From the NCBI RefSeq assembly GCF_018881635.1, contig NZ_JACVPY010000002.1, positions 1,427,717-1,491,716 on the forward strand: a stretch of 64,000 nt of DNA, given 5' to 3'. Numbering within the stretch: the first letter of the stretch is position 1; each line of letters opens with the position of its first letter. A program made the position numbers and the translations under genes. The notes below the pieces were generated by a model. The model was not told where the DNA came from. It did not search any database and saw only the letters and a list, made by a program, of their open reading frames with translations. The stretch is from Polynucleobacter sp. UB-Piko-W3. Its GTDB lineage: Bacteria > Pseudomonadota > Gammaproteobacteria > Burkholderiales > Burkholderiaceae. This document shows, one piece after another, positions 28,534-44,013 of this stretch.

Positions 28534-28579
28534 TCATGCTGCTCCTGTTGATTAACTAGCTATATCTAAAACTATTCAA

Positions 28580-29419
28580 TTACTCAAACATATCTGGCTG
28601 GTTTTCTTTTAGATAACCCCAGATTGGCTGGAAATGTAGCCAGCCAATATATTCGCTGCCCACGTGTTCACGACTGTAGCGTGCGGTTTCTGGCGATAAC
28701 AACATAGGCTTAATACCGGTAGCTTCAACCATCATCTGCTGTTTGCAGCAACGCTCTAAAGCGATAAACCAGAACGCTGCAGCCTCAATACTGTGACGAC
28801 TGACTGTTAATAAGCCATGATTGCGGTGAATAATCGCTTTCACTTTTTTCAATGAACCTGCTACGTTGTAGCCTGAATTATCCTCAACTGCTACTTGACC
28901 AGCTTGTTCTGCTAAAACCATATGGTCCTCAAAGAATGCTGCTGCATCTTGAGAGATTGGATCAAGTGGTTTACCTAGCGCTGCAAATGCTGTTCCATAG
29001 ACTGTATGTGCATGACACATAGCCACAATATCAGGATGTTTTTCATGAACTGCTGCGTGCAACACGAATCCCGCACGGTTCAATGCATGCTTACCTTCCA
29101 AAATATTGCCTTCATGGTCGGCCAAGATTAAGTTAGATACTTTCACTTGATCAAAATGCACTGCCATTGGATTAGTCCAATACAAATTTGGATGCTCTGG
29201 ATCACGAACGGTTAAATGTCCTGCAAATCCGTAGTCAAACTTCTCTAGAGCAAACGCTCTACATGCCGCAACCAATCGCTCCTTGAGATGCTGACGCTGC
29301 TCAGCAAAATTATTAAATTTTGGCTGGTAAGGAAAAATCTGGGATTTGTCTTCAGGTTGATAAATGGACTCTCTGTCGCCCAAGTCCAATTTACGTTCTT
29401 TCTCCATTACCGCAGCCAT
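28580..29419 (-). CDS. Class II aldolase/adducin family protein
   Basis: A 279-residue member of the class II aldolase/adducin superfamily with zinc ligands in MCHAHTVYG and HRNHGLL. The GFAGHLTVRDPEHP block and DAAAFFEDH are those of a large uncharacterised subgroup. Relatives include aldolases and decarboxylases such as PhtC-type dihydroxyphthalate decarboxylase. It starts the operon with the Rieske oxygenase, 46 bases ahead of it, and is divergent from a LysR regulator, whose dyad sites lie between them. A retro-aldol or decarboxylation step on the oxygenase substrate or product is plausible. Confidence 0.82.
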   Translation of the reverse strand: MAAVMEKERKLDLGDRESIYQPEDKSQIFPYQPKFNNFAEQRQHLKERLVAACRAFALEKFDYGFAGHLTVRDPEHPNLYWTNPMAVHFDQVKVSNLILADHEGNILEGKHALNRAGFVLHAAVHEKHPDIVAMCHAHTVYGTAFAALGKPLDPISQDAAAFFEDHMVLAEQAGQVAVEDNSGYNVAGSLKKVKAIIHRNHGLLTVSRHSIEAAAFWFIALERCCKQQMMVEATGIKPMLLSPETARYSREHVGSEYIGWLHFQPIWGYLKENQPDMFE

Positions 29420-29523
29420 GTGAATTCCTTTTTTTGATGATGCAAATTTGATGTTTTGAGAAAACTCAAAAGATAACTAAGCCGTAATCATCGGCTTTCC
29501 CGAGAGTTTTGACAAACGATAAG

Positions 29524-29569
29524 TATTCATAGATAGATGAATATAAATCATGTATATTATATTTACATG
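29524..29569 (+). promoter_or_regulatory. LysR-type operator region (two dyads)
   Basis: TATTCAT-N6-ATGAATA (29524-29543) is a 20-base palindrome and CATGTA-N9-TACATG (29549-29569) is a second; the latter runs over the ATG of the regulator. LysR proteins bind T-N11-A dyads in such divergent regions and often repress themselves. The assignment to the neighbouring regulator is inference. Confidence 0.55.
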
Positions 29570-30463
29570 AGAAAAATGCCAAGTTATGTTCTTTTGCGGG
29601 CTTTTGAGGCTGCTGCCCGCCTCGAAAGCTTTACCTTGGCTGCTCAAGAGCTACATCTCACACAGTCGGCCATTAGTCACCAAATTAGAGCGCTTGAAGA
29701 TTATTTTGCTAAGCCGCTATTTTTGCGAAAGAACCGCAAAGTAGAGCCAACATTAGAGGGACGACGTTTATTAGACTCTCTTTCCAGGGTATTTGATGTC
29801 ATTGAGGCGGCATGCAATGAAGTCACCCTTGCCCCAAGCTCACAAGTTCTTGTCCTGCACTGCTCACCCAGTTTTGCTGCAAAGTGGCTCAGCCCAAGAC
29901 TTCCTGAGTTCATTAAAAATAATCCCGATATCACTATTCGCCTCACTTCTGGAGCAGAGCCAATTGATCTTTTGCGTAATCAAGAAATTGATATTGCGAT
30001 CTCTTATCAATCAACTCGCGAAGGCCCTGGAATTACATCCTTATCTCTAGGTGAAGAAAAAATTGCGCCGCTTTGTTCCCCGGAATTAATTGATCCGAAA
30101 ATGCCAGTAGAAGAGTTAATGAGTAACTTAACTCTCATCGAGTCATCACTAAATCACCATACATGGGAGCAGTGGTTTGAGATTAATCAACTCAAAAATC
30201 CATCAAGTCGAAAAATGTCATTTGATCGTGCAGCCCTTTCTGTATCGGCCGCCGTGGACGGCATAGGCGCTGTTCTTGAGAGCGTGCGCTTTGCTGAAAG
30301 AGAACTCTCACGAGGTGAGTTGGTTGAACTCGGTAAGGGAATCTTTTTACCCACTAATGATAGAACCCATTTTTTATCTTATCGATCGAATGCTAAAAAC
30401 AGTCAAAAAATTAAGCTCTTTAGAGAATGGATATGCATTAAGGCGGGAGTCACTGCAGAGTGA
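29567..30463 (+). CDS. LysR-family transcriptional regulator, GcvA-like
   Basis: A 298-residue regulator. I choose the ATG at 29567 (MRKMPSYVLLRAFEAAARL) because GcvA-like regulators start MR-x-[L/M]-P-x-x-x-x-LRAFEAAAR. The HTH is in FTLAAQELHLTQSAISHQIRALE, followed by a substrate domain with the typical LVLHCSPSFAAKWLSPRLPEF. It is divergent from the aldolase-Rieske operon and overlaps the EamA gene by 4 bases, so it probably controls both. The effector would be an intermediate of the pathway. Confidence 0.9.
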   Translation: MRKMPSYVLLRAFEAAARLESFTLAAQELHLTQSAISHQIRALEDYFAKPLFLRKNRKVEPTLEGRRLLDSLSRVFDVIEAACNEVTLAPSSQVLVLHCSPSFAAKWLSPRLPEFIKNNPDITIRLTSGAEPIDLLRNQEIDIAISYQSTREGPGITSLSLGEEKIAPLCSPELIDPKMPVEELMSNLTLIESSLNHHTWEQWFEINQLKNPSSRKMSFDRAALSVSAAVDGIGAVLESVRFAERELSRGELVELGKGIFLPTNDRTHFLSYRSNAKNSQKIKLFREWICIKAGVTAE

Positions 30464-31311
30464 AATCACCAGTGTTTTTTTTCCTTCTCAGTGGAATCTG
30501 CTTTTCTACTGTAGATGCAATGGCCAAAATTCTGGTCCAAGACACTAATCTCATCGCTGTAGTATGGTCTCGATTTTTTGGTCAACTATTACTTGCGGCT
30601 CCAATAGCTTGGTACTTCCTAGGAAAAAATTTTTGGCGCACTCAAAATTTAGGCTTGCAACTCTTTCGATCTTGCTTACTTGTTGCAACAGCAGCCTTAT
30701 TTTTTGCAGGGCTCAATTGGCTTCCTCTAGCTGAAGCATCATCGATTACCTTCACTGCTCCAATTTGGGTGGCAATCCTATCAGGACCTATATTGGGTGA
30801 GCGCGTTGGACTAAAAGATTGGTTCGTTGCTGCCCTAGGATTCCTGGGCATCCTCTTCATTGCAAGACCAGGCTCGGCAATTTTTCATTTAGCGGCGCTA
30901 CTACTTGTTCTCATGGCATTTCTCAACGCCATCTTTCAGCTGTGCACCAGAAAACTAGTTGAAGACTCGGAGTACACAACTTTCTTTTATAGCGGAATCG
31001 TTGGACTTGTGATCTCTACTTTATTGCTACCGATTTCGGCTCCACTTCCCTCATTACCTGCATATGAATATGTATTGTTTGGTTTGATAGGCTTATTTGG
31101 TGGATTAGCCCATCTATTAGTTGTACTAGCTTTCTACAAAATGCGGCCTTACAAGCTAACTCCTTTAGTTTTCTTGCAACTGATATGGGCCGTTGGCTAT
31201 GGCTACTTGATTTTTGGTGAACTACCCGATGGCTTAAGCGTCGTTGGCATGATTTTGATTGCCTCTTCAGGGATCTGGCTGATCTGGAACCATCGCACAA
31301 TATCAACCTAA
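30460..31311 (+). CDS. DMT-superfamily (EamA) transporter
   Basis: A 283-residue membrane protein with ten helices in two EamA repeats: first half with AMAKILVQDTNLIAVVWSRF and EASSITFTAPIWVAILSG-like segments, second half with LTPLVFLQLIWAVGYGYLIFGE. EamA proteins mostly export amino acids, nucleosides or related metabolites. Translation is coupled to the LysR gene by an ATGA-type overlap, and its stop is 3 bases from the convergent SAF oxidoreductase. Its substrate may be an intermediate or starting compound of the local pathway. Confidence 0.87.
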   Translation: MKSPVFFFLLSGICFSTVDAMAKILVQDTNLIAVVWSRFFGQLLLAAPIAWYFLGKNFWRTQNLGLQLFRSCLLVATAALFFAGLNWLPLAEASSITFTAPIWVAILSGPILGERVGLKDWFVAALGFLGILFIARPGSAIFHLAALLLVLMAFLNAIFQLCTRKLVEDSEYTTFFYSGIVGLVISTLLLPISAPLPSLPAYEYVLFGLIGLFGGLAHLLVVLAFYKMRPYKLTPLVFLQLIWAVGYGYLIFGELPDGLSVVGMILIASSGIWLIWNHRTIST

Positions 31312-31314
31312 GAT

Positions 31315-32652
31315 CTAGGCAAACACTTTTTCCATTTCTCGTCGAAATTGAATCGCCTGCAAAGTAGCGTCGTAATCCACATCACTCCAACACACTGGTT
31401 TGCCAGCTGGAATATCTTTGTTGAGCACCATATTGTGCGCCAAACCAATAGGTAAGGCACCAAGCTTTAGAGAGTCAGCAGTTGTCATCAGTTTTCCGTA
31501 AACGGTAAAGCCGCCCTCTCCGTCTAATTTCTCGCCCGACTTGAGCGTGCGCTTAGCGGTAGCTACTACGTCGCCCTTCCAATCTCCAGTTGCTCCCGTA
31601 GCCTCTCCTCGTACGGCAATACTTGCCACTGAGATACCCAGCTCCACACCGATCAAATGGTAAGGCTTATACATCGCTGCATATTTACCAGTGCTATCTG
31701 TTTTTAGGCCGTATTGTGAAAAGCAATCAATCACATATTGGCTGGGTGCTTCAAACACTGCAAAAACACCCCAACGCAAATCTCTAAATACCGGACGTCC
31801 ATCCCGCTCAACTGAAGACACTACTTCAACAGTTCCTTTTTGTTTCAGAATTCCACCTTCAGATACAGGACGGAAGATATGCGGCAAGTCATCCACTCCG
31901 CAAGGTGGAAACTCTAAGCCATTACTAGGGGGAATTAAGTCGCAAGCATTTGATACTGCGGCCATTTCGAGGGCTGACTTCGTTCCATCCAAAAATGAAT
32001 TGAACATTTGTGCATTAAAGTCGCCACCAGCAACTTGCGATTCAGAAAAGCCATAATGGCCCCAAACTGTATCCGGAGTGGACTGGTGATAGATAGGCAA
32101 ATATTTAGTGCCCTTACCAGCACACACTACTTCTAAGCCAATCGTTCTTGCCCAATCGACCAATTCAGCAATGAGAGCAGGCTGATCACCTGAGGCCATT
32201 GAATAAATCACACCAGCCTCTGCCGCCTTACGCGCAAGCAAGGGTCCAGCCAAAACATCTGCCTCGACGTTCACCATAATGATGTGCTTACGATGATCAA
32301 AACACAGTAATGCATGACGAATACCAGCTGCTGGGCTGCCTGTAGAATCGATCACGATATCGATATGCTCACTAGCAATCATTTTTTCTACATCGTCAGT
32401 CACAAAAGTGGCGCCTGACTTTGCTGCCTCTTGTAGCGAAGTAGCACTATAACGAGGCGCATCCCAACCTACACGAGCAAGGGATTCTTTGGCACGCGTG
32501 GGAGATAAATCAGCAACTGCAACTAGATGAATACCTGGAGTCCGTGGTGCTTGCGAGAGATACATAGAGCCAAATTTACCTGCGCCAATAATGCCCACAC
32601 GTACGGGATTATTGTTCGCAGCACGCACTTTGAGCTTTTGAATAAGGGACAT
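31315..32652 (-). CDS. NAD(P)-dependent oxidoreductase with C-terminal SAF domain
   Basis: A 445-residue protein. The N-terminal Rossmann fold has VRVGIIGAGKFGSMYL and IVIDSTGSPAAGIRHALLC, as in homoserine dehydrogenase-like enzymes. The C-terminal quarter (from about 370) has KTLKSGEKLDG-like and LNKDIPAGKPVCWSDVDYD segments typical of SAF domains, as in FlgA and sialic acid synthases. Such fusions occur in sugar-acid catabolism, but the reaction is unknown. It lies 74 bases downstream of aceE on the minus strand and is probably in the same operon. Confidence 0.8.
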   Translation of the reverse strand: MSLIQKLKVRAANNNPVRVGIIGAGKFGSMYLSQAPRTPGIHLVAVADLSPTRAKESLARVGWDAPRYSATSLQEAAKSGATFVTDDVEKMIASEHIDIVIDSTGSPAAGIRHALLCFDHRKHIIMVNVEADVLAGPLLARKAAEAGVIYSMASGDQPALIAELVDWARTIGLEVVCAGKGTKYLPIYHQSTPDTVWGHYGFSESQVAGGDFNAQMFNSFLDGTKSALEMAAVSNACDLIPPSNGLEFPPCGVDDLPHIFRPVSEGGILKQKGTVEVVSSVERDGRPVFRDLRWGVFAVFEAPSQYVIDCFSQYGLKTDSTGKYAAMYKPYHLIGVELGISVASIAVRGEATGATGDWKGDVVATAKRTLKSGEKLDGEGGFTVYGKLMTTADSLKLGALPIGLAHNMVLNKDIPAGKPVCWSDVDYDATLQAIQFRREMEKVFA

Positions 32653-32726
32653 CTAAAAATCTCCAGTTAATTCGGTATTAAGTAATAGGCAATAGAGGGA
32701 TGATCATAAGGCATCAAGAGAAAAGA

Positions 32727-35366
32727 TCATTTTTTCAATGATTCTTTTGCTACCTTATAAATACTGTCTGCATTGACGCCAAAATATTCACGTAATGCTG
32801 CCCTCGTATCACTCCTGCCGAAACCATCAGTACCAAGCGTAATGTATCGTCTGCCTTCAGGAATATAGGCGCGAATACTGTCTGGTAGCGCATGTACGTA
32901 GTCTGTAGCAGCCACAATCGGGCCACGTCCCTCAGTAAGCGTTTGGCTAATAAATGCTTGTTCGGTGCCAGTCTCACCAGCAAGCCTTGCCTGCTCTTTT
33001 GCCTTGCCATCTCTAGATAATTCACTCCAACTAGTCACGCTAAAGATATCAACATTAATGCCAGTGTTAGCAAGCATGTCTGCTGCCTTCAGCACCTCAG
33101 TCATGATGGCTCCAGAACCTAGCAAAGTTACACAAGAGTTACTATCCCCAGTGCTAGCTTTTACCGTCTTTAATTTATAGCAGCCACGAATCACGCCCTC
33201 GACAGCATTCTCAGGTAAATCAGGCTGAGCATAGTTTTCATTCATGAGCGTGATGTAATAGAACAAATCTTTTTGATCAACTAACATATCGCGCATACCT
33301 TGATCCACAATCACCGCCAACTCGCCTGCAAAAGCAGGGTCGTATGCCTTGCAATTGGGGATAGTTCCAGCAACGAGCTGGCTACTACCATCTTGGTGCT
33401 GTAAACCTTCACCGCCCAATGTTGTTCTACCAGAGGTTGCTCCTAATAAAAATCCCCTAGCGCGTTGATCAGCGGCTGCCCAAATAGCATCACCAATACG
33501 CTGAAAGCCAAACATTGAATAGTAGATATAGAAAGGCAGCATTGCGATGCCGTGAACGCTATAGCTAGTTGCTGCAGCAGTCCAACTTGCAATGGCACCC
33601 GCCTCACTAATGCCCTCTTCCAGAATTTGCCCGTCTAATGCTTCGCGATAGCTCAGAACCGAACCAATATCTTCCGGTTCATAGCGCTGACCTACGCTCG
33701 AGTAAATACCAACCTGCTTAAATAAATTGGCCATCCCAAATGTCCGTGCTTCATCGGCCACGATTGGTACGACTCTAGGCCCGAGCTCTTTATCTTTCAG
33801 TAAATTTCCAAGCATGCGGACAAAAGCCATCGTCGTCGACATCTCTTTTGATTCAGCTTTGATTGCAAAAGCTGCATAAGAAGCAATATCGGGGATATTT
33901 AACTTTTCACATTCTGAATAACGCTTAGGTAGCTGACCGCCAAGCTTAGTACGTTGTTCTTTTAAATACTTTAGCTCTTCACTATTTTCATCAGGCCTAA
34001 AGAAGGTAAGGTTAGTAGCCTGCTCATCTGTTAAGGGCAAATTAAATCGATTGCGATAGGCAATCAATGCTTCGTCATCTAACTTTTTCTGACTATGGGT
34101 AGTCATTTTTCCTTGGCCAGCATTACCCATGCCATAGCCTTTTTTGGTATGCGCCAAGATCACTGTTGGCTGACCTATATGATTAGCAGCAGCTTGATAG
34201 GCTGCATGAATTTTGACTAAATCATGACCGCCTCTTTTGAGCCGATCAATTTGTTCATCCGTCATACCCTGAGCAAGCCTGGCTAATTCTTCATTTTGAC
34301 CAAAGAAATTTTTACGATTAAAACTGCCATCTTTTGCAGCAAAGGTTTGCATTTGTCCATCAACAGTTTGAGCAAACGCTTTTACTAATGCTCCAGTAGT
34401 GTCTCTGGCAAAGAGCCCATCCCAATCACTTCCCCATACCAACTTAATGACATTCCAACCAGAACCTCTAAAGAGTTTTTCGAGCTCATCAATAATTCTG
34501 CCATTGCCGCGCACTGGTCCATCCAAGCGTTGCAAGTTGCAATTGACTACCCAAACCAAGTTATCCAACTTTTCTCTAGATGCCAATGTCAGGGCGCTCA
34601 TACTTTCTGGCTCATCCATCTCACCATCACCAAATACACCCCAAACTTTCCTGGTGGAGCAATCTAGTAATTTGCGATCACTCAGATAACGCATAAAGCG
34701 TGCATGGTAAATGGAGCTGATTGGCCCAATTCCCATTGAGCCAGTTGGGAACTGCCAAAAATCAGGCATTAACCAAGGATGTGGATAGCTTGATAAGCCC
34801 CTCGCTCCAGATTCAGGTGCAGTAATTTCACGTCTGTAATGCAACAGGTCATTCTCTGTAAGTCTTCCCTCTAGATAAGCACGGGCGTAGACTCCAGGCG
34901 CGCTATGAGGCTGAAAGAAAACTAAGTCTCCGCGCTCTTTGGCCTCTCCACCCTGAGTTCTTGCGCGGAAAAAATGATTAAAGCCCACTTCAAATAAATC
35001 TGCCGCGCTAGCGTAACTAGCAATATGGCCGCCCAACTCCCCATAGACTTCATTTGCTTTTGCAACCATGGCGAGTGCATTCCACCTCATCAAAGATGCG
35101 AGTTTTTCTTCAATCGCTAGGTCTCCAGGAAATGGAGGCTGCTCATCCACTGGGATTGAATTGACATAAGGGGTTACTAAATCTGGCACCCAATTAATTT
35201 GATTTTTATTGGCTAGCTTTAGCAAACTATCCAAAATGAATTTAGCCCTTGCGCTATCACCTGAGGCTAGCAAGTCCATAAATGCCTCGTTCCACTCTGC
35301 AGTTTCTGCAGGATCGGTATCAACGTGCTCAAGATTTAAATATTTTTTAATGTCGGGGGCGTTCAT
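32727..35366 (-). CDS. aceE: Pyruvate dehydrogenase E1 component, homodimeric type (accessory copy?)
   Basis: An 879-residue AceE-type E1. TPP/Mg binding is GVFGDGEMDEPES (GDG at 246-248) with NCN about 27 residues on; other family blocks are ISSIYHARFMRYL, ILAHTKKGYGMG, GYLHQDGSS-like GEGLQHQDGSSQ and the C-terminal LGTDGFGRSDTRAALREYF. It decarboxylates pyruvate, or a close 2-oxoacid, and acetylates E2 lipoyl groups. The gene follows an E2 lacking a lipoyl domain, and no E3 gene is present, so it is likely a second, inducible E1; the housekeeping aceEF-lpd set would lie elsewhere. Confidence 0.93.
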   Translation of the reverse strand: MNAPDIKKYLNLEHVDTDPAETAEWNEAFMDLLASGDSARAKFILDSLLKLANKNQINWVPDLVTPYVNSIPVDEQPPFPGDLAIEEKLASLMRWNALAMVAKANEVYGELGGHIASYASAADLFEVGFNHFFRARTQGGEAKERGDLVFFQPHSAPGVYARAYLEGRLTENDLLHYRREITAPESGARGLSSYPHPWLMPDFWQFPTGSMGIGPISSIYHARFMRYLSDRKLLDCSTRKVWGVFGDGEMDEPESMSALTLASREKLDNLVWVVNCNLQRLDGPVRGNGRIIDELEKLFRGSGWNVIKLVWGSDWDGLFARDTTGALVKAFAQTVDGQMQTFAAKDGSFNRKNFFGQNEELARLAQGMTDEQIDRLKRGGHDLVKIHAAYQAAANHIGQPTVILAHTKKGYGMGNAGQGKMTTHSQKKLDDEALIAYRNRFNLPLTDEQATNLTFFRPDENSEELKYLKEQRTKLGGQLPKRYSECEKLNIPDIASYAAFAIKAESKEMSTTMAFVRMLGNLLKDKELGPRVVPIVADEARTFGMANLFKQVGIYSSVGQRYEPEDIGSVLSYREALDGQILEEGISEAGAIASWTAAATSYSVHGIAMLPFYIYYSMFGFQRIGDAIWAAADQRARGFLLGATSGRTTLGGEGLQHQDGSSQLVAGTIPNCKAYDPAFAGELAVIVDQGMRDMLVDQKDLFYYITLMNENYAQPDLPENAVEGVIRGCYKLKTVKASTGDSNSCVTLLGSGAIMTEVLKAADMLANTGINVDIFSVTSWSELSRDGKAKEQARLAGETGTEQAFISQTLTEGRGPIVAATDYVHALPDSIRAYIPEGRRYITLGTDGFGRSDTRAALREYFGVNADSIYKVAKESLKK

Positions 35367-35400
35367 GAAAAATTCCTCTGTGACTTTTTATCTTTTAAGT

Positions 35401-36366
35401 TCATAACAACACCTTACGAAAATCACCTAATAACTGAGTGAGATACCTAGTGAAATGGGTTGCTAAGGCGCCATCAATAACTCGGTGATCCGCAGTCATT
35501 GAAAGCGGGTAGATGAGGCGCGGAATAAATTGTGCGCCATCCCAAACTGGCTTCATAGCAGACTTATTGACTGCCAGAATAGCCACCTCTGGTGCATTCA
35601 CAATAGGGGCAGAGTAGGTGCCGCCAATTCCACCCAATGAAGAGATCGTAAAACTCGCGCCCTGCATCTGATCCGGTTTCAGCCTTCCCTCGCGGGCCAG
35701 TATGGCTAGCGCAGCAGTTTCTGCTGCAATCTCTCGAATACCTTTCTGATCCACGTTCCGAATCACCGGAACGACTAAGCCACCCTTGGTATCTACGGCA
35801 AATCCAATATGGAAATATTTTTTCAAGATGAGATCTTCACCATCCAGCGAGGCATTAAATGTTGGGTACTTCTTGAGGGCGGCAACTGCAGCCTTAATTA
35901 AGAATGCTAATAAAGTAATCTTAATCTCGTCTTTTTTATTTTCTTGATTCAACTCAGCACGAAACTCTTCAAGCTCAGTGATATCCGCATCATCGTGATA
36001 AGTTACTGCTGGAATCATCGCCCAATTGCGCGCAAGATTAGCGGCTGAAACTTTCTGAATTCGACTACGAGCTTGACGCTCTATTTCTCCGAACTTTGTA
36101 AAGTCCACCTTAGGCCAAGGTAATAGGTCAAGGCCGCCATTGCCCTGAGGTACTTGGGGAGAACTTTCTTTTGCCAACATTGAGCGCTTTATAAATTGCC
36201 CGATATCTTCTTTGGTGATTCGGCCTCTTTGGCCACTGCCTTGAACCTGCCTAATATCAACACCAAATTCACGGGCAAATTTTCTGGTCGAGGGGCCAGC
36301 CCAACACTCAGACCCCATCATGTCTGGATCTTTTCGAACCTCTGGAAACGCAATCTCAATACTCAC
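35401..36366 (-). CDS. 2-oxoacid dehydrogenase E2 acyltransferase lacking the lipoyl domain
   Basis: A 321-residue protein. It has a peripheral subunit-binding domain (about 24-62; [27 protein letters not shown]), a short linker, and a full acyltransferase domain (about 90-321) ending with the catalytic DHRVIDG (His294, Asp298). Family members carry one to three lipoyl domains in front; here only [10 protein letters not shown] remains, which resembles the first strand of such a domain. The start is GTG (36364-36366) behind GGAGGGG. An in-frame TAG lies 27 bases upstream and Lrp begins 136 bases away, so no lipoyl domain can be encoded ahead of it. It is first in the operon with aceE 34 bases later. 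Confidence 0.9.
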
Positions 36367-36460
36367 AACCCCTCCAAAAATTGACGGCTGTACCTAAGGC
36401 TCAATTTTGTAGGATTACAGTCAAAATAGGATGCTAATTATTGGTCATAAATGATAATTT

Positions 36461-36477
36461 TCAGCATAATATGCTGA
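36461..36477 (+). promoter_or_regulatory. Lrp-like operator between E2 and the lrp-type gene
   Basis: TCAGCATAATATGCTGA is a perfect palindrome (8+8 around A/T). Its core CAGCATAATATGCTG fits the E. coli Lrp consensus YAGHAWATTWTDCTR at 14 of 15 positions. It is centred about 33 bases before the Lrp start. A second, imperfect dyad AATTAT/ATAATT lies at 36436-36458. Control of both divergent units is inference. Confidence 0.6.
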
Positions 36478-36501
36478 TATAAGTATTTTTTAAGGAATTT
36501 T

Positions 36502-36966
36502 ATGAAGCTAGACCCCATAGATATCAGAATATTGAATGAACTGCAAAATGACAGTTCCCATAGCAATGTGGAGTTAGCTAAGCGGGTTCACTTATCACCT
36601 TCACCCTGTTTGATGCGGGTGAAGGCACTCAAAGATAAGGGCGTTATCCGCAACTATGTGGCACTAGCTGACCCGAAGATTTTGGGGCTTGGCTTAAATG
36701 TTTTCATCTCGATTAGCCTTAAAGAGCAATCTAAAGAGGCCTTAGCGCAATTTGAACAGCGCATCTCTGAACACGATGAAGTAATGGAGTGCTATCTCAT
36801 GACTGGTGATAGCGACTACCTGATTCGGGTGGCAGTAGCCGATATGGGTGCACTGGAAAAATTTATCCTAGAGCAACTCACGCCAATACCTGGAATTGAA
36901 AAAATTCGGTCTAGCTTTGCTTTAAAGCAAGTGCGCTATAAAACTGCTTTACCATTACCTAAGTAA
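36502..36966 (+). CDS. Lrp/AsnC-family transcriptional regulator
   Basis: A 154-residue protein with an N-terminal winged HTH (LDPIDIRILNELQNDSSHSN, LAKRVHLSPSPCLMRVKAL) and a C-terminal RAM/ligand domain (VFISISLKEQSKEAL, CYLMTGDSDYLIRVAVADM). Family members sense amino acids or 2-oxoacids. It is divergent from the lipoyl-less E2-aceE operon and is followed by an SDR gene after 49 bases. A palindrome matching the Lrp consensus stands just upstream. Confidence 0.92.
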   Translation: MKLDPIDIRILNELQNDSSHSNVELAKRVHLSPSPCLMRVKALKDKGVIRNYVALADPKILGLGLNVFISISLKEQSKEALAQFEQRISEHDEVMECYLMTGDSDYLIRVAVADMGALEKFILEQLTPIPGIEKIRSSFALKQVRYKTALPLPK

Positions 36967-37015
36967 ATATTGGGCAATATAGAAGTTATCTGAGACATTT
37001 ATTAGAAAGAAAGCA

Positions 37016-37777
37016 ATGCCACAAACAAATAATAAGGTAGCGCTCGTCACTGGAGCTGGAGTAGGTATTGGAAGAGCAGCGGCTAAGGCGCTTCTCAAAG
37101 GCGGCTATCAAGTTGTCCTCACTGGACGCAATCTAGAGAAACTAGAAAAAGCAATTATCGATATCGGCGGAAATAATGAGAACTGCCTAGCAGTTACCTG
37201 TGACGTTGGTAAACCAGAGCAAGTAAAGAAATTGTTTGCCGCCCTAAAGGAACGCTTTGGACGTATTGACGTCTTGTTTAACAATGCAGGTATTGGTGCG
37301 CCCGCGATTCCAATGGAAGACTTGACATATGAGCAGTGGATGAATGTTGTGAATTCAAATCTCTGTGGTGCCTTCTTATGCTCGCAAGAAGCTATTCGGA
37401 TGATGAAAGCACAATCTCCACAAGGCGGCAGAATTATCAATAACGGCTCAATCTCTGCGCATGCCCCAAGACCCATGTCAGCCCCCTACTCTGCTACTAA
37501 ACATGGGATTAGCGGTTTAACAAAAACGATTGCGCTAGATGGTCGTCCATTTAACATTGCCTGCGGACAAATTGATATTGGTAATGCGGCAACAGAAATG
37601 ACAGAGCGCATGGCTGCTGGAATCATGCAGGCTGATCAATCCATTAAGGTTGAACCACGCATGGATGTAGAGCACGTTGGAGAGGCAGTTCTGCATATGG
37701 CGCAGCTACCGCTAGAAAGTAATATTTTATCGATGACGATCATGGCCACCAAAATGCCTTTTGTTGGCAGAGGCTAG
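37016..37777 (+). CDS. SDR-family oxidoreductase
   Basis: A 253-residue classical short-chain dehydrogenase. The cofactor motif is [15 protein letters not shown], the NAG motif is [13 protein letters not shown], and the active site is NNGSISAH with YSATKHG (Ser, Tyr, Lys). It follows the Lrp gene and is probably co-transcribed. It resembles general 3-oxoacyl or sugar alcohol dehydrogenases; the substrate is unknown. Hydroxyacid or alcohol oxidation feeding AceE is a reasonable guess. Confidence 0.88.
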
Positions 37778-37797
37778 TTTTAATTGATTCGGAGATA

Positions 37798-37824
37798 GAT
37801 GCTCACTCTAAACCCGTGAGCATC
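37798..37824. terminator. Bidirectional hairpin between SDR and gamma-carbonic anhydrase genes
   Basis: GATGCTCAC and GTGAGCATC form a perfect 9-bp stem around 9 bases; TTGATT and AATCAA outside it can extend the pairing. It is between two convergent genes, 20 bases after the SDR stop and just before the carbonic anhydrase stop. T-runs are short. Confidence 0.5.
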
Positions 37825-37831
37825 CAATCAA

Positions 37832-38359
37832 TTATTCAGAAATCTTTTTAAGCGTCTTGGTATAACGCTGCGCATTCTTAATATAGCGTCCAGCAATATC
37901 ATCAATACCAGCAATTTGCTCTGGGCTTAGTGTTTTGACTGCCTTAGCGGGCGAGCCAATAATCATTGAGCCCTCTGGAAACTCTTTACCCTCAGTTACT
38001 AGAGCTCCCGCACCAACCAAACAGTTTTTGCCAATCTTGGCGCCATTTAAGATCACTGCACCAATACCAATCAGACTTCCGTCACCGATACAGCAACCAT
38101 GAAGCATGACTTGATGCCCCACTGTAACGTTTTTACCAATCATGAGCGGGAAGCCAGGATCAGTATGCAGAACTGATGCATCCTGTACGTTGCTACCTTC
38201 ACCAATTTGAATAAGATCGTTATCGGCGCGGATAACGACTTTGGGCCAGATGCTCACATTTTTATGGAGCTCTACTTTGCCGATCACCTCAGCGCTCTGG
38301 GCAACCCAAGCTCCCTCAGATAACTGAGGAGCATTTCCGTCTAGTTCAAATATAGCCAT
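37832..38359 (-). CDS. Gamma-carbonic anhydrase family protein (YrdA/PaaY-like)
   Basis: A 175-residue left-handed beta-helix protein of hexapeptide repeats. Zinc ligand histidines are visible in [17 protein letters not shown], as in YrdA, CaiE and PaaY. Strands run from [10 protein letters not shown] to [11 protein letters not shown] with a C-terminal helix. It may hydrate CO2 or act as a thioesterase; activity is uncertain in this subgroup. It stands alone on the minus strand between the accessory cluster and amt. Confidence 0.85.
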
Positions 38360-38403
38360 GACTCATTATAGGTATGAAACAGGCTATATAGAAAGACTGA
38401 AAA

Positions 38404-39606
38404 CTACCAGTTAGGCTCACGATCTGGAGTAGAAGAAATACGGTGCACACTTAAGTCGGCGCCCTCATACTCCTCCTCTTGAGACATCCGAATACCGAGT
38501 ACTGCCTTCAGTGTTCCGTAGACTATAAATCCACCAATTAAGGCGATGCCCACGCCAAGCGCACTACCAATCAACTGGCCCGTAAAGGTGACGCCACCAA
38601 TCCCGCCGAGCGCTTTCGTTCCAAAAATACCGGCAGCCAATCCACCCCAGAGTCCACACAGGCCATGCAGCGGCCAAACGCCCAGAACATCATCGATTTT
38701 CCAGCGGTTTTGGACCAAGGTAAACATATAAACAAACAATGCACCCGCCACTACGCCAACAAATAATGCGCCGATCGGATGCATCAAATCAGATCCTGCA
38801 CAAACAGCAACTAAACCTGCAAGAGGGCCGTTATATACAAAACCCGGATCGTTGCGACCAACCACCCAGGCTGCGAGCGTGCCGCCGACCATCGCCATCA
38901 ATGAATTCATTGCGACTAAGCCGCTGATCTTATCAATCGTCTGTGCACTCATCACATTAAAACCAAACCAACCTACCGCAAGAATCCATGCACCTAAAGC
39001 AAGAAACGGAATGCTTGAAGGTGGATGCGCAGAAATCTGACCCTCTTTGGTATAGCGCCCACGACGAGCCCCCAAAAGAATCACTGCTGGCAAAGCAATC
39101 CAACCGCCTACTGCATGAACTACTACTGAGCCAGCAAAATCATGAAATTCTTCGCCAGTCAAACCTTTGATCCACGCCTGAATACCATAGTGCTGATTCC
39201 ATGCGATACCTTCAAAGAAAGGATAAATAAAACCCACCAACACAAATGTTGCAATGAGTTGTGGATTGAATTTAGCGCGCTCCGCAATGCCACCAGAAAC
39301 AATTGCAGGAATAGCGGCGGCAAAAGTAAGTAAGAAGAAAAACTTCACTAACTCATAGCCATTTTTCTCAGCCAGCAATTCTGCGCCGGAGAAAAAGCTC
39401 ACGCCATAAGCAATGCTATATCCAATGAAAAAATAGGCAATGGTTGAAACTGCAAAGTCCACCAAGATTTTGACCAAGGCATTGACTTGGTTCTTTTTAC
39501 GAACAGTGCCTAGTTCAAGGAAAGCAAAACCAGCATGCATGGCCAGAACCATGACTGCACCGAGCAAAATGAATAAAGCATCACTACCTGTTTTTAAAAT
39601 TTCCAC
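38404..39606 (-). CDS. amt: Ammonium transporter Amt
   Basis: A 400-residue channel with about 11 helices. I set the start at GTG 39604-39606, with an AAAGGAGA ribosome site 6 bases ahead; an extension to 39657 lacks family likeness. Amt marks are MHAGFAFLELGTVRKKNQVN, FAGSVVVHAVGGW with the pore histidine, and DVLGVWPLHGLCG with the second. GlnK is not adjacent, so PII control would come from elsewhere. The C-terminal regulatory tail ends in DREPNW. NtrC-type sites upstream suggest nitrogen control. Confidence 0.92.
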   Translation of the reverse strand: MEILKTGSDALFILLGAVMVLAMHAGFAFLELGTVRKKNQVNALVKILVDFAVSTIAYFFIGYSIAYGVSFFSGAELLAEKNGYELVKFFFLLTFAAAIPAIVSGGIAERAKFNPQLIATFVLVGFIYPFFEGIAWNQHYGIQAWIKGLTGEEFHDFAGSVVVHAVGGWIALPAVILLGARRGRYTKEGQISAHPPSSIPFLALGAWILAVGWFGFNVMSAQTIDKISGLVAMNSLMAMVGGTLAAWVVGRNDPGFVYNGPLAGLVAVCAGSDLMHPIGALFVGVVAGALFVYMFTLVQNRWKIDDVLGVWPLHGLCGLWGGLAAGIFGTKALGGIGGVTFTGQLIGSALGVGIALIGGFIVYGTLKAVLGIRMSQEEEYEGADLSVHRISSTPDREPNW

Positions 39607-39661
39607 GAAATTTCTCCTTTGATTTTTTGCATCATTATGGGGAAAAGATAATTCCAAATCA

Positions 39662-39686
39662 GTGCAGAATGCACCTCTTTAGTGCG
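39662..39686 (-). promoter_or_regulatory. NtrC-like enhancer upstream of amt
   Basis: On the minus strand CGCACTAAAGAGGTGCA (39670-39686) matches the GCAC-N7-GTGC core of NtrC sites and 14 of 17 bases of the enteric consensus. GTGCAGAATGCAC (39662-39674) adds a second TGCAC dyad. They lie about 60-80 bases before the GTG. A full sigma-54 -24/-12 element was not found; TTGGAATTATCTTTTCC is only a partial match. Confidence 0.5.
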
Positions 39687-39742
39687 CTAATAGGTCAAAT
39701 ATATGGTTTATGATGGAATTTCATATACCTTAGGGGAAGCCC

Positions 39743-40105
39743 ATGAAGAAATTCCTTATTATTTCGGCAGCTTTTGCAGCATTCTCTGCCCCAGCTCAGG
39801 CTCAAGAAACCATCAAAGTACTGAGCACCCAAGAATTAGTCAATGTTTGCAAACTCCCCGCAAGTCCAGAATCTCGCAGTTTTTGTATTGGATTTACGAC
39901 TGCCGTATATGAAACCTATTTAGCAACACGACACCCACAACGTGCCAAACCCTTTATTTGCGTTAAGCAACCTGCTCCTGCGCGCGATGAAGTGATCGGT
40001 GATTTTGTAAAGTTTGCACAATCGAATCAACAAGCAGCTGACAAACCAGCTTCAGGTGTGTTTTTAGGCTTTATGGCCACACGCTTTCCTTGCGCCAGTA
40101 AATAA
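39743..40105 (+). CDS. Rap1a/Tai-like small secreted protein
   Basis: A 120-residue protein with a signal peptide (KKFLIISAAFAAFSAPAQAQ). The mature part shows the Rap1a/Tai pattern: ELVNVCKLPA, FCIGFTTAVYETYL, PFICVKQ, and the ending GVFLGFMATRFPCA, with four cysteines. Some relatives are immunity proteins for type VI amidase effectors, but most orphan copies have no effector next to them, and none is visible here. Function is open. Confidence 0.7.
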   Translation: MKKFLIISAAFAAFSAPAQAQETIKVLSTQELVNVCKLPASPESRSFCIGFTTAVYETYLATRHPQRAKPFICVKQPAPARDEVIGDFVKFAQSNQQAADKPASGVFLGFMATRFPCASK

Positions 40106-40152
40106 TTCACACAACTTAGCAAACTCAAAATCTATTTAAAGGATCAGTTGAT

Positions 40153-40440
40153 ATGAAAAAAATTATCGCGATTTCGGTAGCAACGCTTGTGATTGTTGGC
40201 TGCTCAAATATGAGCAATACAGAGCAACGCACACTTTCAGGCGCAAGCATCGGCGCAGCTGCTGGTGCAGTCGGTACTGCTATTTTCCACGGCAATCCTA
40301 TTTGGGGTGCAGTTGGCGGCGCAGCTGTTGGCGCAGCCTCTGGTTATGTATACGATGCTTATAAGAAAGAGCAAGCATCAGAATATAACTCCGGCTACAA
40401 GGCAGGAAAAAATAATCAGCCGGCAAAAGCACCAAACTAA
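40153..40440 (+). CDS. Glycine-zipper lipoprotein
   Basis: A 95-residue lipoprotein: signal core IAISVATLVIV, lipobox VIVGC with Cys17. The mature part has the glycine zipper SGASIGAAAGAVGTAIF and AVGGAAVGAASGYVYDA, as in OsmB and YMGG-type proteins. Those insert in or bind the outer membrane and are often stress-induced. It follows the Rap1a-like gene by 47 bases and is closed by a clear terminator. Confidence 0.8.
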   Translation: MKKIIAISVATLVIVGCSNMSNTEQRTLSGASIGAAAGAVGTAIFHGNPIWGAVGGAAVGAASGYVYDAYKKEQASEYNSGYKAGKNNQPAKAPN

Positions 40441-40462
40441 TTCTAGTCTTAGTGCAGCAAAC

Positions 40463-40500
40463 AACCCAGCTTATATTAATTTACTAGCTGGGTTTTTATT
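40463..40500 (+). terminator. Terminator after the glycine-zipper lipoprotein gene
   Basis: AACCCAGCT and AGCTGGGTT form a 9-bp perfect stem with a 14-base loop followed by TTTATTT. It overlaps the 3' end of the convergent OsmC gene, so it may serve that gene too. Confidence 0.8.
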
Positions 40501-40868
40501 TGGATCTGTCCCGCTAAAGCTTTATGTATAGGGCACTTATTGGCAATCTCTATCAAGCGATCTTTTTCTTCTGCGCTTAAATTACCAATCAACTGAATAT
40601 CGCGTGTAAATTTTTCGACATCATCTACCCGCTCAATATCGACAATCACGATAGCATTCTCTAGACTCATTGCTTTACGACTGGCATACATCTTTAAGGT
40701 CATACTTGTACAAGCCGCTAAAGCAGCGCCTAGATATTCATGTGGACTAGGCCCAGTTCCACCACCACCCTTACTAACTTCTGCATCAGATAAAAAATGT
40801 AAATCGCCCGTACTTAACTTTTGCTGGAGTGGACCTTCGCCAAACTGTGACTCTACTTTTCTCATCAT
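40476..40868 (-). CDS. OsmC family protein
   Basis: A 130-residue OsmC/Ohr fold protein. Segments are GGTGPSPHEYLGAALAACTSM with the peroxidatic-type cysteine, DVEKFTRDIQLIGNLS and the second cysteine in NKCPIHKALAG. It probably reduces organic peroxides with thiols, of the YhfA-like branch. It is followed on the minus strand by the terminator it shares, and preceded by the rhodanese gene 27 bases upstream; both handle thiol/sulfur chemistry. Confidence 0.87.
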   Translation of the reverse strand: MMRKVESQFGEGPLQQKLSTGDLHFLSDAEVSKGGGGTGPSPHEYLGAALAACTSMTLKMYASRKAMSLENAIVIVDIERVDDVEKFTRDIQLIGNLSAEEKDRLIEIANKCPIHKALAGQIQIKTQLVN

Positions 40869-40895
40869 GACCTCAATTAAAATAAATAATGCTAC

Positions 40896-41297
40896 TTAGG
40901 GCTTACTTGCTTTATCGACTGTGGGTAGCTGAGCTTTTTTCCAGGCACTAAACCCACCCTCTAGATGAGATACATTGGGCACCCCCATTCTTTGCAGTGT
41001 CTCAGTCGCCAAGGCAGAACGCCAAGCAGAAGCACAATAAAGAACTAAACGCTTACCTTCGCCAAAAATCGGCTTGTAATAAGGACTCTCAGGGTCAACC
41101 CAAAATTCCAACATCCCTCTGGGAGCATGCATTGCATTTGGAATCATACCTTCGCGCTCTAATTCTCGAACATCACGAATATCAACAAAAACAGTATTAG
41201 AGTCGCCCAGCAAGTCTTGCGCCTTTGCTAGCGGAACAGTTTCAATTTGGGTCATTGCGCTGGCAATGAGCTCTTTATAGCCAATCTTTAATTTCAC
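40896..41297 (-). CDS. Rhodanese-like domain protein
   Basis: A 133-residue single rhodanese domain. The start is best at GTG 41295-41297, 5 bases after AGGGGG; a TTG one codon earlier and an ATG at 41255 are alternatives. Motifs are VFVDIRDVRELEREGMIPNA and the active loop LYCASAWRSALA, with Cys as the persulfide carrier. The A-W-R-S loop differs from the common CxxGxRS form. It probably transfers sulfane sulfur. It is upstream of the OsmC gene in the same orientation. Confidence 0.83.
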   Translation of the reverse strand: MKLKIGYKELIASAMTQIETVPLAKAQDLLGDSNTVFVDIRDVRELEREGMIPNAMHAPRGMLEFWVDPESPYYKPIFGEGKRLVLYCASAWRSALATETLQRMGVPNVSHLEGGFSAWKKAQLPTVDKASKP

Positions 41298-41355
41298 CAA
41301 AACCCCCTAAAGTGACAATGTCTTAGAGTATTCAATCACCTGCTACCATCCTGCT

Positions 41356-42618
41356 ATGAACTTTACCCCTACAGAACTTGGCGCCAGTATTATTTTTGCC
41401 ATTGCAGTTTTACATACTTTTTGCACTGCCTACTTTGAGACTCTAGCCAAAAACTCAAGGAGCCATTCTGGCCTTTGGCACCTCCTGGGCGAAGTTGAAA
41501 TTGTTTTTGGCTTTTGGGCAGCTATCCTAATCATCTTCATTTGTTTTATTGATGATTTAGATACTGCCAGAGCTTTTTTAGCAAAGCGTAACTTTACAGA
41601 GCCTTTATTCGTATTTGCCATCATGATTGTGGCGGGCAGCAAGCCAATTCTATTTATCTCTACTGAAGTTTTGTATCTGCTGGCGAAAGGGCTCCAGCTC
41701 ATTTTGCGCATTAGAAGTGCGCCTTCTTTATATTTCTTGACACTATCAATCACGCCATTGTTAGGATCTCTTATTACAGAGCCTGCAGCCATGACATTGG
41801 CTGCATTTTTACTGCGTGATTCAGTCTATCGACACCAGTGCTCAAAAGCATTGCTATTTGGAACGCTGGGCGTACTCTTTGTCAACGTCTCCATTGGCGG
41901 TACCTTAACCAACTTCGCTGCACCTCCAGTTCTCATGGTTGCTTCAACCTGGGGTTGGAGCTCAGCGTTCATGTTTACCAATTTCGGCATTGAATCCTGC
42001 ATTGCCATTTTTATTAATGCACTTGGAGTAACACTGCTATTTCATCGTCAGCTGATTGAGCCAAACAGCAGTACCAAGCAAGTCAAAATACCACTTGCAG
42101 TGATCTTGATGCATTTACTATTCTTGCTTGGCGTTGTGGTGTTTGCTCATGACCCTGTGATCTTTATGTGGATACTACTGTTCTTTATTGGCTACACCAC
42201 TGCATATCCTAAACATCAAAATCCGCTGATTCTGAAAGAGGCATTATTGGTTGGCTTCTTCTTGGCCGGTTTAGTGGTTTTAGGAGCATTGCAAGGATGG
42301 TGGCTGCAACCGATTCTTGAAAAGATGAGTCCCACTGCAGTCTTTTATGGCAGTCTTGCACTAACAGCGATCACAGATAATGCAGCGCTGACTTATTTGG
42401 GATCCTTGGTCACAGATACTTCCTTAGAGTTCAAGCTGGCTTTAGTGGGCGGAGCGGTTGCTGGCGGTGGATTGACTGTCATCGCTAATGCACCCAACCC
42501 AGCAGGAATTGCCATCTTGCGGCAACACTTTCCAAATGGGGCTGTGTCAGCCCTCTATCTCCTAATAGCAGCACTTCCACCCACAGTAGTAGCAATTTTG
42601 GCTTATCGACTCATATAG
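41356..42618 (+). CDS. Putative Na+/H+ antiporter (Na_H_antiport_3 family)
   Basis: A 420-residue membrane protein with about ten to twelve helices. Its pattern (HTFCTAYFETLAKNSRSHSG, HLLGEVEIVFGFWA, VNVSIGGTLTNFAAPPVLMV, ALTAITDNAALTYLGSLV, and IANAPNPAGIAIL) matches a family of putative sodium/proton antiporters (PF07399) related to the ion transporter superfamily. TNFAAPP and TDNAALT suggest the paired ion-binding sites. It is single, between the divergent rhodanese gene and miaB. Confidence 0.78.
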   Translation: MNFTPTELGASIIFAIAVLHTFCTAYFETLAKNSRSHSGLWHLLGEVEIVFGFWAAILIIFICFIDDLDTARAFLAKRNFTEPLFVFAIMIVAGSKPILFISTEVLYLLAKGLQLILRIRSAPSLYFLTLSITPLLGSLITEPAAMTLAAFLLRDSVYRHQCSKALLFGTLGVLFVNVSIGGTLTNFAAPPVLMVASTWGWSSAFMFTNFGIESCIAIFINALGVTLLFHRQLIEPNSSTKQVKIPLAVILMHLLFLLGVVVFAHDPVIFMWILLFFIGYTTAYPKHQNPLILKEALLVGFFLAGLVVLGALQGWWLQPILEKMSPTAVFYGSLALTAITDNAALTYLGSLVTDTSLEFKLALVGGAVAGGGLTVIANAPNPAGIAILRQHFPNGAVSALYLLIAALPPTVVAILAYRLI

Positions 42619-42666
42619 ACGGTAAAATCTGAGCTTCGCCCCCAGTTATAAACCTGAGAACGGCAT

Positions 42667-44013
42667 ATGAAAAAGCTCTATATCAAAACTTTTGGCTGTC
42701 AAATGAACGAGTATGACTCGGGTAAGATGGCCGACCTGCTACATGCCGAAGAAGGCATGGTCATGACCAATACCCCAGAAGATGCAGATGTCGTTCTTCT
42801 CAATACTTGCTCCATTCGAGAAAAAGCCGAAGATAAAGTCTTCTCCGACCTAGGACGTTTGCGTGAGCTTAAGAAAACTAAACCTCATTTATTAATTGGT
42901 GTTGGTGGTTGTGTAGCAAGCCAAGAGGGTCAGCAAATTGTCAGTCGTGCGCCCTATGTTGACGTAGTCTTTGGGCCGCAAACATTACATCGCTTACCTG
43001 ACCTGCTTGCGCAACGTCGCAATACTGGCATCTCACAAGTAGACATTTCTTTTCCTGAAATTGAAAAGTTTGATCATCTTCCTGCATCGCGCCAAACTCG
43101 AGGATCTGCCTATGTCTCTATTATGGAAGGATGCTCCAAGTACTGTAGCTACTGCGTAGTTCCTTATACACGCGGGGAAGAAGTATCAAGACCATTTGAT
43201 GATGTTCTTACCGAGGTTGCAGGACTTGCCAGCAAAGGTGTTAAAGAAATTGTTTTACTTGGTCAAAACGTTAATGCCTATCTTGGCAAAATGGGTGGCA
43301 CAGATGAGATCGCCGACTTTGCTTTACTGATTGAATACATTGCTGATATTCCTGGGGTTGAGCGTATTCGCTTTACCACTAGCCACCCTAAAGAATTCAC
43401 GCAACGCCTGATCGATGTGTATGCCAAAGTTCCTAAGCTGGTGAGTCACTTGCATCTACCAGTTCAACATGGGGCTGACTCAATGCTATCGGCCATGAAA
43501 CGGGGCTATACCGCATTGGAATATAAAAGCATCATTCGCAAAATGCGAGCCGTACGACCTGATTTGACCTTATCAAGCGATTTTATTGTAGGTTTTCCTG
43601 GTGAGACTGAGGCAGACTTTGAAAAGCTCTTGAAGATGGTTCGCGAGCTTGAGTTCGACAATAGTTTTTGCTTTATCTTTAGTCCGCGTCCAGGAACACC
43701 AGCCGCCAATCTCACTGATGAAACTCCATACGAAACAAAACTAAAGCGCTTACAAACGCTGTTAGCACTTGTTGAGGGACAAGCAAATCAAATCAGTCAA
43801 AAAATGCTGGGCAATACCGAGAGGGTGTTGATTGAAGGTCTAGCAAAGGATGGTATCAACTTACAAGGTCGCGCCGAGAATAATCGCGTTGTGCATTTCA
43901 TAACACCCGACCAAGCAATTGAATCGCTGATCGGACAGATGGTTGATATTCGCATTACTGAAGTACTAAATTACACCTTAAGAGGCGAATTAGTCAAAGC
44001 CCATGCTCACTAA
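42667..44013 (+). CDS. miaB: tRNA-2-methylthio-N6-dimethylallyladenosine synthase MiaB
   Basis: A 448-residue radical-SAM methylthiotransferase that modifies A37 of tRNAs reading UNN codons. It has the N-terminal UPF0004 domain with its cysteines ([29 protein letters not shown]), the radical-SAM [15 protein letters not shown], and a TRAM domain ([17 protein letters not shown]). All six cluster cysteines are present. Its last 11 bases overlap ybeY. Confidence 0.97.

Follow-up and report, generated by a model that had tools for sequence, protein, structure and literature searches.

The genome of Polynucleobacter sp. UB-Piko-W3 encodes, in addition to its housekeeping AceF, a dihydrolipoamide acyltransferase (E2) that consists of a subunit-binding domain and a catalytic domain and has no lipoyl domain. 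This lipoyl-free E2 is real and conserved, it is derived from AceF, and it stands beside an E1 of the MdeB type. It is probably an arm-stripped aceF duplicate serving this E1 with lipoyl groups supplied in trans; precedents for lipoyl supply in trans exist, and the arrangement described here is a variation on them. The window analysed is a stretch of 64,000 nucleotides from a genome of 2.05 Mb in 9 contigs, and its main features are as follows.

31315-32652, minus strand: DXR-II-like or homoserine-dehydrogenase-like oxidoreductase of 445 aa with a SAF domain (DRL_cat), encoded third in the operon
32727-35366, minus strand: homodimeric E1 of the MdeB type (TIGR03186), 879 aa, with its catalytic residues retained and G in place of E. 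coli V192
35401-36366, minus strand: lipoyl-free E2 acyltransferase, GTG start, 321 aa, with N-terminal tail (1-21), subunit-binding domain (about 22-60), linker and catalytic domain (about 81-321)
36369-36375, minus strand: Shine-Dalgarno-like GGAGGGG, two bases 5' of the GTG start
36462-36476, between the Lrp and E2 genes: perfect inverted repeat CAGCATA-A-TATGCTG, a putative Lrp operator
36502-36966, plus strand: divergent Lrp/AsnC-family regulator, 154 aa
37016-37777, plus strand: short-chain dehydrogenase adjoining the Lrp gene, syntenic in most carriers

The lipoyl-free E2 gene and its operon

Two Pfam domains were identified in the E2, namely E3_binding (PF02817; residues 23-55, E 8.1e-14, 52 bits against a cut-off of 23.7) and 2-oxoacid_dh (PF00198; residues 94-320, E 3.1e-79, 266.1 bits against a cut-off of 23). 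Alignment with E. coli E2p matches the motifs DHRVIDG and FTISSLGG, and the protein has both marks of a PF00198-type E2, a DHRxxDG catalytic domain and a peripheral subunit-binding domain. A first-pass annotation of this DNA had described a subunit-binding domain and an intact catalytic domain without a lipoyl domain, which Pfam and the motif alignment confirm; the profile search for a lipoyl domain that it had proposed was run, and Biotin_lipoyl gave no match in the 321 residues even at E ≤ 1 (Pfam). The fold is fixed by the match to the solved E2p 7b9k (E 2.9e-98). Over its residues 14-321 the short E2 is 70% identical to the AceF of its own genome, and it scores 439.6 bits for the AceF model TIGR01348, below the cut-off of 552.1, with the profile aligned from position 285 only.

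A stop lies in the E2 frame 9 codons (27 bases) 5' of the GTG start, and 135 bases separate this start from the ATG of the divergent Lrp gene (36502), so that a lipoyl domain of about 240 bases would have no room on the 5' side, as had been claimed before. That the N-terminal tail retains the first strand of a lost lipoyl domain, as suggested earlier, finds support in the starts of the four lipoyl-bearing orthologues, which begin with LAIEVVVPDIGDY in three and LAIEILVPDIGDY in one; the short copy of genome G306 begins with MAIELFVPDIG.

The partner of this E2 had been read as AceE, which is not borne out. The E1 belongs to the MdeB-type family, since its 1442.6 bits for TIGR03186 exceed the curated cut-off of 1408.3, compared with 1278.7 bits for the aceE model TIGR00759, and it is 51-53% identical to the real AceE of the genus (17 loci). 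TIGR03186 is labelled alpha-ketoglutarate dehydrogenase by NCBI; the family was founded on P. putida MdeB, the E1 of a 2-oxobutyrate dehydrogenase. Nothing on MdeB was found in the open-licence literature searched. With E. coli residue numbers placed on the E1s by alignment, the equivalents of H142, H407, E522, E571, Y599 and H640, which are catalytic in E. coli AceE, are kept in 20/20 operon E1s. The position of V192, presumably near the substrate, is G in 146/146 MdeB-type rows with more than 600 aligned residues versus V in 17/17 AceE. For annotators it follows as a warning that a pair of AceE-like and AceF-like genes is not necessarily a pyruvate dehydrogenase.

E1 and E2 are separate genes (32727-35366 and 35401-36366), and the E2 lies 5' of the E1 on the same strand in 21/21 loci of the genus, that of the window included. 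The reversed order pointed out in the first-pass annotation therefore stands as far as the order goes, but not as an order relative to aceE; it fits an aceF copy inserted between the Lrp gene and an MdeB-type E1. The third gene matches 3upy/3upl (E 1.4e-58), a homology by which DXP reductoisomerase activity is a candidate only. It is found 3' of the E1 in 17 of the 21 E2 loci of the genus, is absent in two (L100, L108), and the contig ends first in the other two. Relatives of the oxidoreductase were also seen near MdeB-type E1 in other genera (L164, L188, L199, and edge fragments in L025 and L032), and in the genus loci L245-L249, which have the E1 only, relatives are located beyond the Lrp gene, on its other side.

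The inverted repeat at 36462-36476 is a candidate operator for Lrp. Its exact 7+1+7 form is present in 9 of the 21 loci with this E2 and in 0/13 E1-only genus loci, and its inner part in 15/21, which makes it less general as an operator than first thought.

Distribution, origin and selection

A third AceF-like E2 (above 500 bits) was detected in 21 of 186 genomes of the genus, including that of the window, the best other match reaching 479.9 bits. These proteins comprise 17 short forms without a lipoyl domain and four long forms with one. A divergent Lrp gene is present in all 21 loci. In a 22nd carrier (G311) the E2 is broken off at the contig end and its form, short or long, is unreadable. 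The survey of homologues that had been proposed earlier thus found the short form conserved beside the E1 (17 short among the 21/186). All 17 short copies are open frames, and dN/dS is low in the binding and catalytic domains of the 16 copies tested, which argues against both a sequencing error and scattered decay. A frameshift, excluded in the first-pass annotation from the window copy, can be dismissed on the 17/17 open and conserved frames, and the decaying pseudogene with scattered disruptions, named there as a possible refutation, was checked and does not hold.

MdeB-type E1 (at least 76% identity) occurs in at least 35/186 genomes of the genus, a count in which fragments may be missed. 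In at least 13 of them no E2 stands beside the E1, with the Lrp gene adjoining the E1 in 10 and not in 3; the downstream flank ends early in three of these loci and is short in a fourth, and some of the genomes are incomplete. Genome-wide, the 13 contain one or two E2 matches, none above 500 bits. One locus therefore exists in three states within the genus, as E1 alone, with a lipoyl-bearing E2 and with a lipoyl-free E2, and this series is suited to asking how far 2-oxoacid dehydrogenases share swinging arms and whether their cores mix. In the housekeeping AceF of the genus the number of lipoyl domains, one or two, varies with the species (L080-L088, L109-L126); G284 (92% complete) has two different AceF loci (L113 and L114), by duplication or contamination.

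In the family, an E1 above the TIGR03186 cut-off was detected in 54 of 150 sampled genomes. An E2 is adjacent to MdeB-type E1 in 7/110 loci outside the genus, always with a lipoyl domain, and none is adjacent in 103/110; the sample consists of 30 loci with 1.5 kb flanks and 80 from public genomes, and short flanks and contig ends limit the neighbour counts. A divergent upstream Lrp gene (at least 55% identity) is present in 69/110, and 8 of the Lrp-negative loci have less than 900 bases upstream. Among 18 further family loci, a lipoyl-bearing E2 is near the E1 in two, L044 and, one intervening frame away, L057, and a divergent Lrp gene by the same identity rule is present in five. MdeB-type E1 mostly stands without its own E2 in this sample, and together with the E1-only genomes of the genus the 103 loci without an adjacent E2 suggest that this E1 family relies on shared E2 and E3. 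The link between E1, Lrp and oxidoreductase looks older than the E2.

Two further observations concern the E1 loci. In L238, L240 and L241 the MdeB-type E1 is without an Lrp gene in the stretch examined and is near a 558-aa frame starting with MSEKMTGA(K/R)YF, which resembles a ThDP-dependent enzyme, so that the E1 possibly has another role there. In three family genomes (L045, L054, L058) the frame of the MdeB-type E1 has one in-frame stop.

A tree of 84 E2 cores unites the 21 third E2s in a single clade (100/99), whose connecting branch to the 27 AceF of the genus is supported by 99/92; support for the AceF clade itself is 92/83. This identifies the short E2 gene as a genus-level duplicate of aceF. 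Sixteen short forms cluster together (100/97), while the short form of G306 falls outside the four long ones, and this tree requires two changes of lipoyl state. By the AU test, a single clade of short forms is compatible with the E2 core (p 0.338), whereas the E1+Lrp concatenation rejects it (p 0.0087); the E2 tree was already known when the latter test was made. For the long forms, the lipoyl domains group in a single clade (SH-aLRT 99), with 73-77% identity to the best lipoyl matches in the AceF of the genus. Based on the E1+Lrp test and on this divergence, the lipoyl domain was probably lost at least twice, the second loss resting on G306, an 88%-complete genome. A recent re-acquisition of the domain by the four long forms was also considered and is not supported by their separate clade and the 73-77% identity, evidence that is weak in a tree of 79 columns.

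The DNA alignment of 15 loci revealed an upstream region common to short and long forms. The GTG or TTG start is aligned in 14/15 loci (L105 does not align there), and a GGAGG-like stretch before the start is aligned in most (weaker in L103). As the start signals are common to both forms, the deletion of the lipoyl domain was most likely internal. The E1 tree shows the E1-only genomes scattered among the others, its E1-only group of 14 including G311 with its broken E2, and this pattern suggests that the E2 was also lost entirely or the operon transferred.

The binding and catalytic domains of 16 short copies are under purifying selection. Pairwise median dN/dS within this 16-member clade (G306 left out, pairs with dS outside 0.05-2.0 dropped) is 0.049 for the catalytic part and 0.081 for the binding domain (111 pairs each), compared with 0.44 for the tail (112 pairs) and 0.40 for the linker (95 pairs); the ratios are approximate, as the median dS is about 1. 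For the other genes of the locus the values are 0.029 for E1 (90/91 pairs, 14 sequences), 0.026 for the oxidoreductase (78/78 pairs, 13 sequences) and 0.018 for Lrp (115/120 pairs). The whole short E2 gene has a median of 0.082 (118/120 pairs), higher than E1 and than AceF (0.056 from 54/91 pairs of 14 sequences, rough as the lipoyl number varies), which counts against the mechanism proposed below.

Residue 252 of the E2 is C in 20 and S in one (the window copy) of the 21 third E2s, and F in 54/54 AceF; another fixed difference from AceF is G265 to A. Both changes are also found in the long forms and hence predate the loss of the lipoyl domain. The column of F252 is S in two SucB-like proteins. 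In other lineages the E2s that adjoin MdeB-type E1 have retained F at this pocket position (L146, L203), so the pocket change is no general mark of an MdeB-type pathway. A smaller pocket residue would accommodate a larger acyl group, and the changes of E2 Phe to Cys or Ser and of E1 Val to Gly are a hint at a 2-oxoacid larger than pyruvate. The putative substrate assignment is based on the family name and on work on P. putida MdeB, from which the NCBI family label differs.

Proposed function and alternative explanations

The following mechanism is proposed. A genus-specific duplicate of aceF would have entered the space separating a lone MdeB-type E1 from an Lrp-type regulator, and an in-frame internal deletion would then have removed its lipoyl domain. 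The resulting short E2 may work as a dedicated subunit-binding and acyltransferase module for the E1, which would decarboxylate a 2-oxoacid, likely larger than pyruvate, e.g., 2-oxobutyrate, and reductively acylate a lipoyl group supplied in trans. Within a core that is shared or mixed, the donor could be AceF; alternatively, the N-terminal lipoyl domain of the pyruvate dehydrogenase (PDH) E3 could serve, as the binding domain of the short E2 could recruit this E3. The acyl group would be passed to CoA by the short E2, and the lipoyl group would be reoxidised by E3.

Such supply in trans is possible because lipoyl-bearing AceF and E3 are both encoded in the genome. Seven lipoyl-type domains over the cut-off were found there, which by labels assigned from reading the frames belong to AceF (two), SucB, the aceF-linked E3, GcvH and two biotin carriers, and no other free lipoyl carrier is among the seven. 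The aceF-linked E3 has a lipoyl domain in 17 of 18 PDH loci of the genus (L109-L126), the 18th being broken by a contig end. The first-pass annotation had held that known E2 chemistry requires a swinging lipoyl arm; taken as an arm on the E2 itself, this overlooks the natural cases of lipoyl supply in trans in Mycoplasma hyopneumoniae (PMC7873978) and OdhA (PMC10415282). It had also offered three ways out, of which borrowing of lipoyl domains is best supported by the comparison and a mixed core fits the 70% identity to AceF.

The third way out was that the E2 acts on free acyl-CoA. A wider form of this idea, with free acyl-CoA or free lipoamide and outside any 2-oxoacid dehydrogenase, would suit a protein without a lipoyl domain, but the position of the E2 beside the E1 in 21/21 loci and the kept subunit-binding domain make it highly improbable, and for free acyl-CoA there is no evidence. 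Equally far-fetched is an alternative DXP/MEP route, in which the E1 would condense pyruvate and glyceraldehyde 3-phosphate, a DXR-II-like enzyme would take the next step and the E2 would be incidental. The third operon gene is indeed a DXR-II-related oxidoreductase, position 408 (E. coli numbering) is S in 20/20 operon E1s, and single changes of E. coli AceE permit DXP formation (PMC3424233). Against this route, the sites at which DXP-enabling changes are most frequent, L633 and E636, are unaltered, 70 of 126 other MdeB-type E1s retain Q408, and the oxidoreductase families DLO1 and DLO2 are relatives of DXR-II (PMC3847144).

The other two explanations accept the E2 as part of a 2-oxoacid dehydrogenase. 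The short E2 might be structural or regulatory, its binding domain tethering the MdeB-type E1 in a mixed core, or diluting the AceF arms there, with its own acyltransferase activity irrelevant. A conserved binding domain and low dN/dS agree with such a role, the existence of E1-only relatives suggests that the MdeB-type E1 may need no E2 other than AceF, and at 70% identity co-assembly with AceF is plausible; yet the catalytic part is the most constrained (0.049), DHRVIDG and FTISSLGG are kept, and all 21 copies agree with AceF at 97 of its 126 near-invariant core columns. This is more than a tether alone would need, and we regard the structural reading as unlikely. Less likely still, the gene could be on its way out, as a redundant duplicate that lost its lipoyl domain first and in some lineages the whole gene next. 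Should AceF alone suffice for the E1 in relatives, the short E2 could be dispensable; the interspersed E1-only genomes are consistent with loss of the whole E2, the tail and linker evolve freely, and the remaining 29 of the 126 near-invariant columns vary among the 21 copies. The 17 intact short frames across the genus, the catalytic dN/dS of about 0.05 and the kept start region speak against it.

Within the preferred reading, an E2 with lipoyl supplied in trans, a heteromeric core can tentatively be imagined, although we do not consider it the likelier case. The short E2 would be an acyl-specificity subunit, by virtue of the smaller residue that replaces the AceF Phe at 252; co-assembled with AceF, it would bring its own E1 and use the arms of adjacent AceF or E3 subunits, and its own arm would have been discarded, probably more than once, since supply in trans suffices. 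If so, one PDH particle would also oxidise a larger 2-oxoacid.

Comparison with known systems

Among the matches listed from the open-licence literature searched, one, on human PDC, concerns the lack of a lipoyl domain, and none names Polynucleobacter. The closest relative is encoded in the same genome, the AceF (E2p) at 565-2187 of L001, which resembles the short E2 in the binding and catalytic domains and belongs to the sister clade; it has two lipoyl domains and F at position 252, whereas the short E2 is devoid of lipoyl domains and the window copy has S. The NCBIfam model NF008815 (PRK11857), a dihydrolipoamide acetyltransferase model of 308 positions, is aligned at positions 5-299 with residues 22-313 of the short E2 and so leaves no room for a lipoyl domain; unlike its members, the short E2 scores 181.9 bits against a cut-off of 378 and is not one of them.

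The locus shares with that of P. putida MdeB an E1 above the TIGR03186 cut-off and an Lrp-family regulator beside it. The P. putida locus has a methionine gamma-lyase next door; unlike it, the window has an E2 and, among 15 genes (26977-44013; Pfam), neither a methionine gamma-lyase nor another PLP-dependent Cys/Met enzyme, so that an MdeB locus of this composition was rejected. Neighbour clustering of 119 loci gave, besides E1 and Lrp, no family in more than 27 loci (the E2s), the next being in 23.

The PDH of M. hyopneumoniae presumably has an E2 without a lipoyl domain, as PMC7873978 implies. In that PDH the lipoyl domain is carried by E3 (PdhD) (PMC7873978). The genome studied here likewise encodes a lipoyl-bearing E3 and a lipoyl-free E2. 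It differs in that the M. hyopneumoniae complex is the PDH of the cell, whereas here lipoyl-bearing AceF and SucB are also present and the E3 is encoded elsewhere. Corynebacterial OdhA, for which PMC10415282 and PMC7568260 describe lipoyl groups provided in trans, by AceF, is similar as an acyltransferase and E1 relying on lipoyl in trans, a reliance that would also apply to the short E2. OdhA is an E2-E1 fusion acting on 2-oxoglutarate; here the two genes are separate, and the subunit-binding domain is kept.
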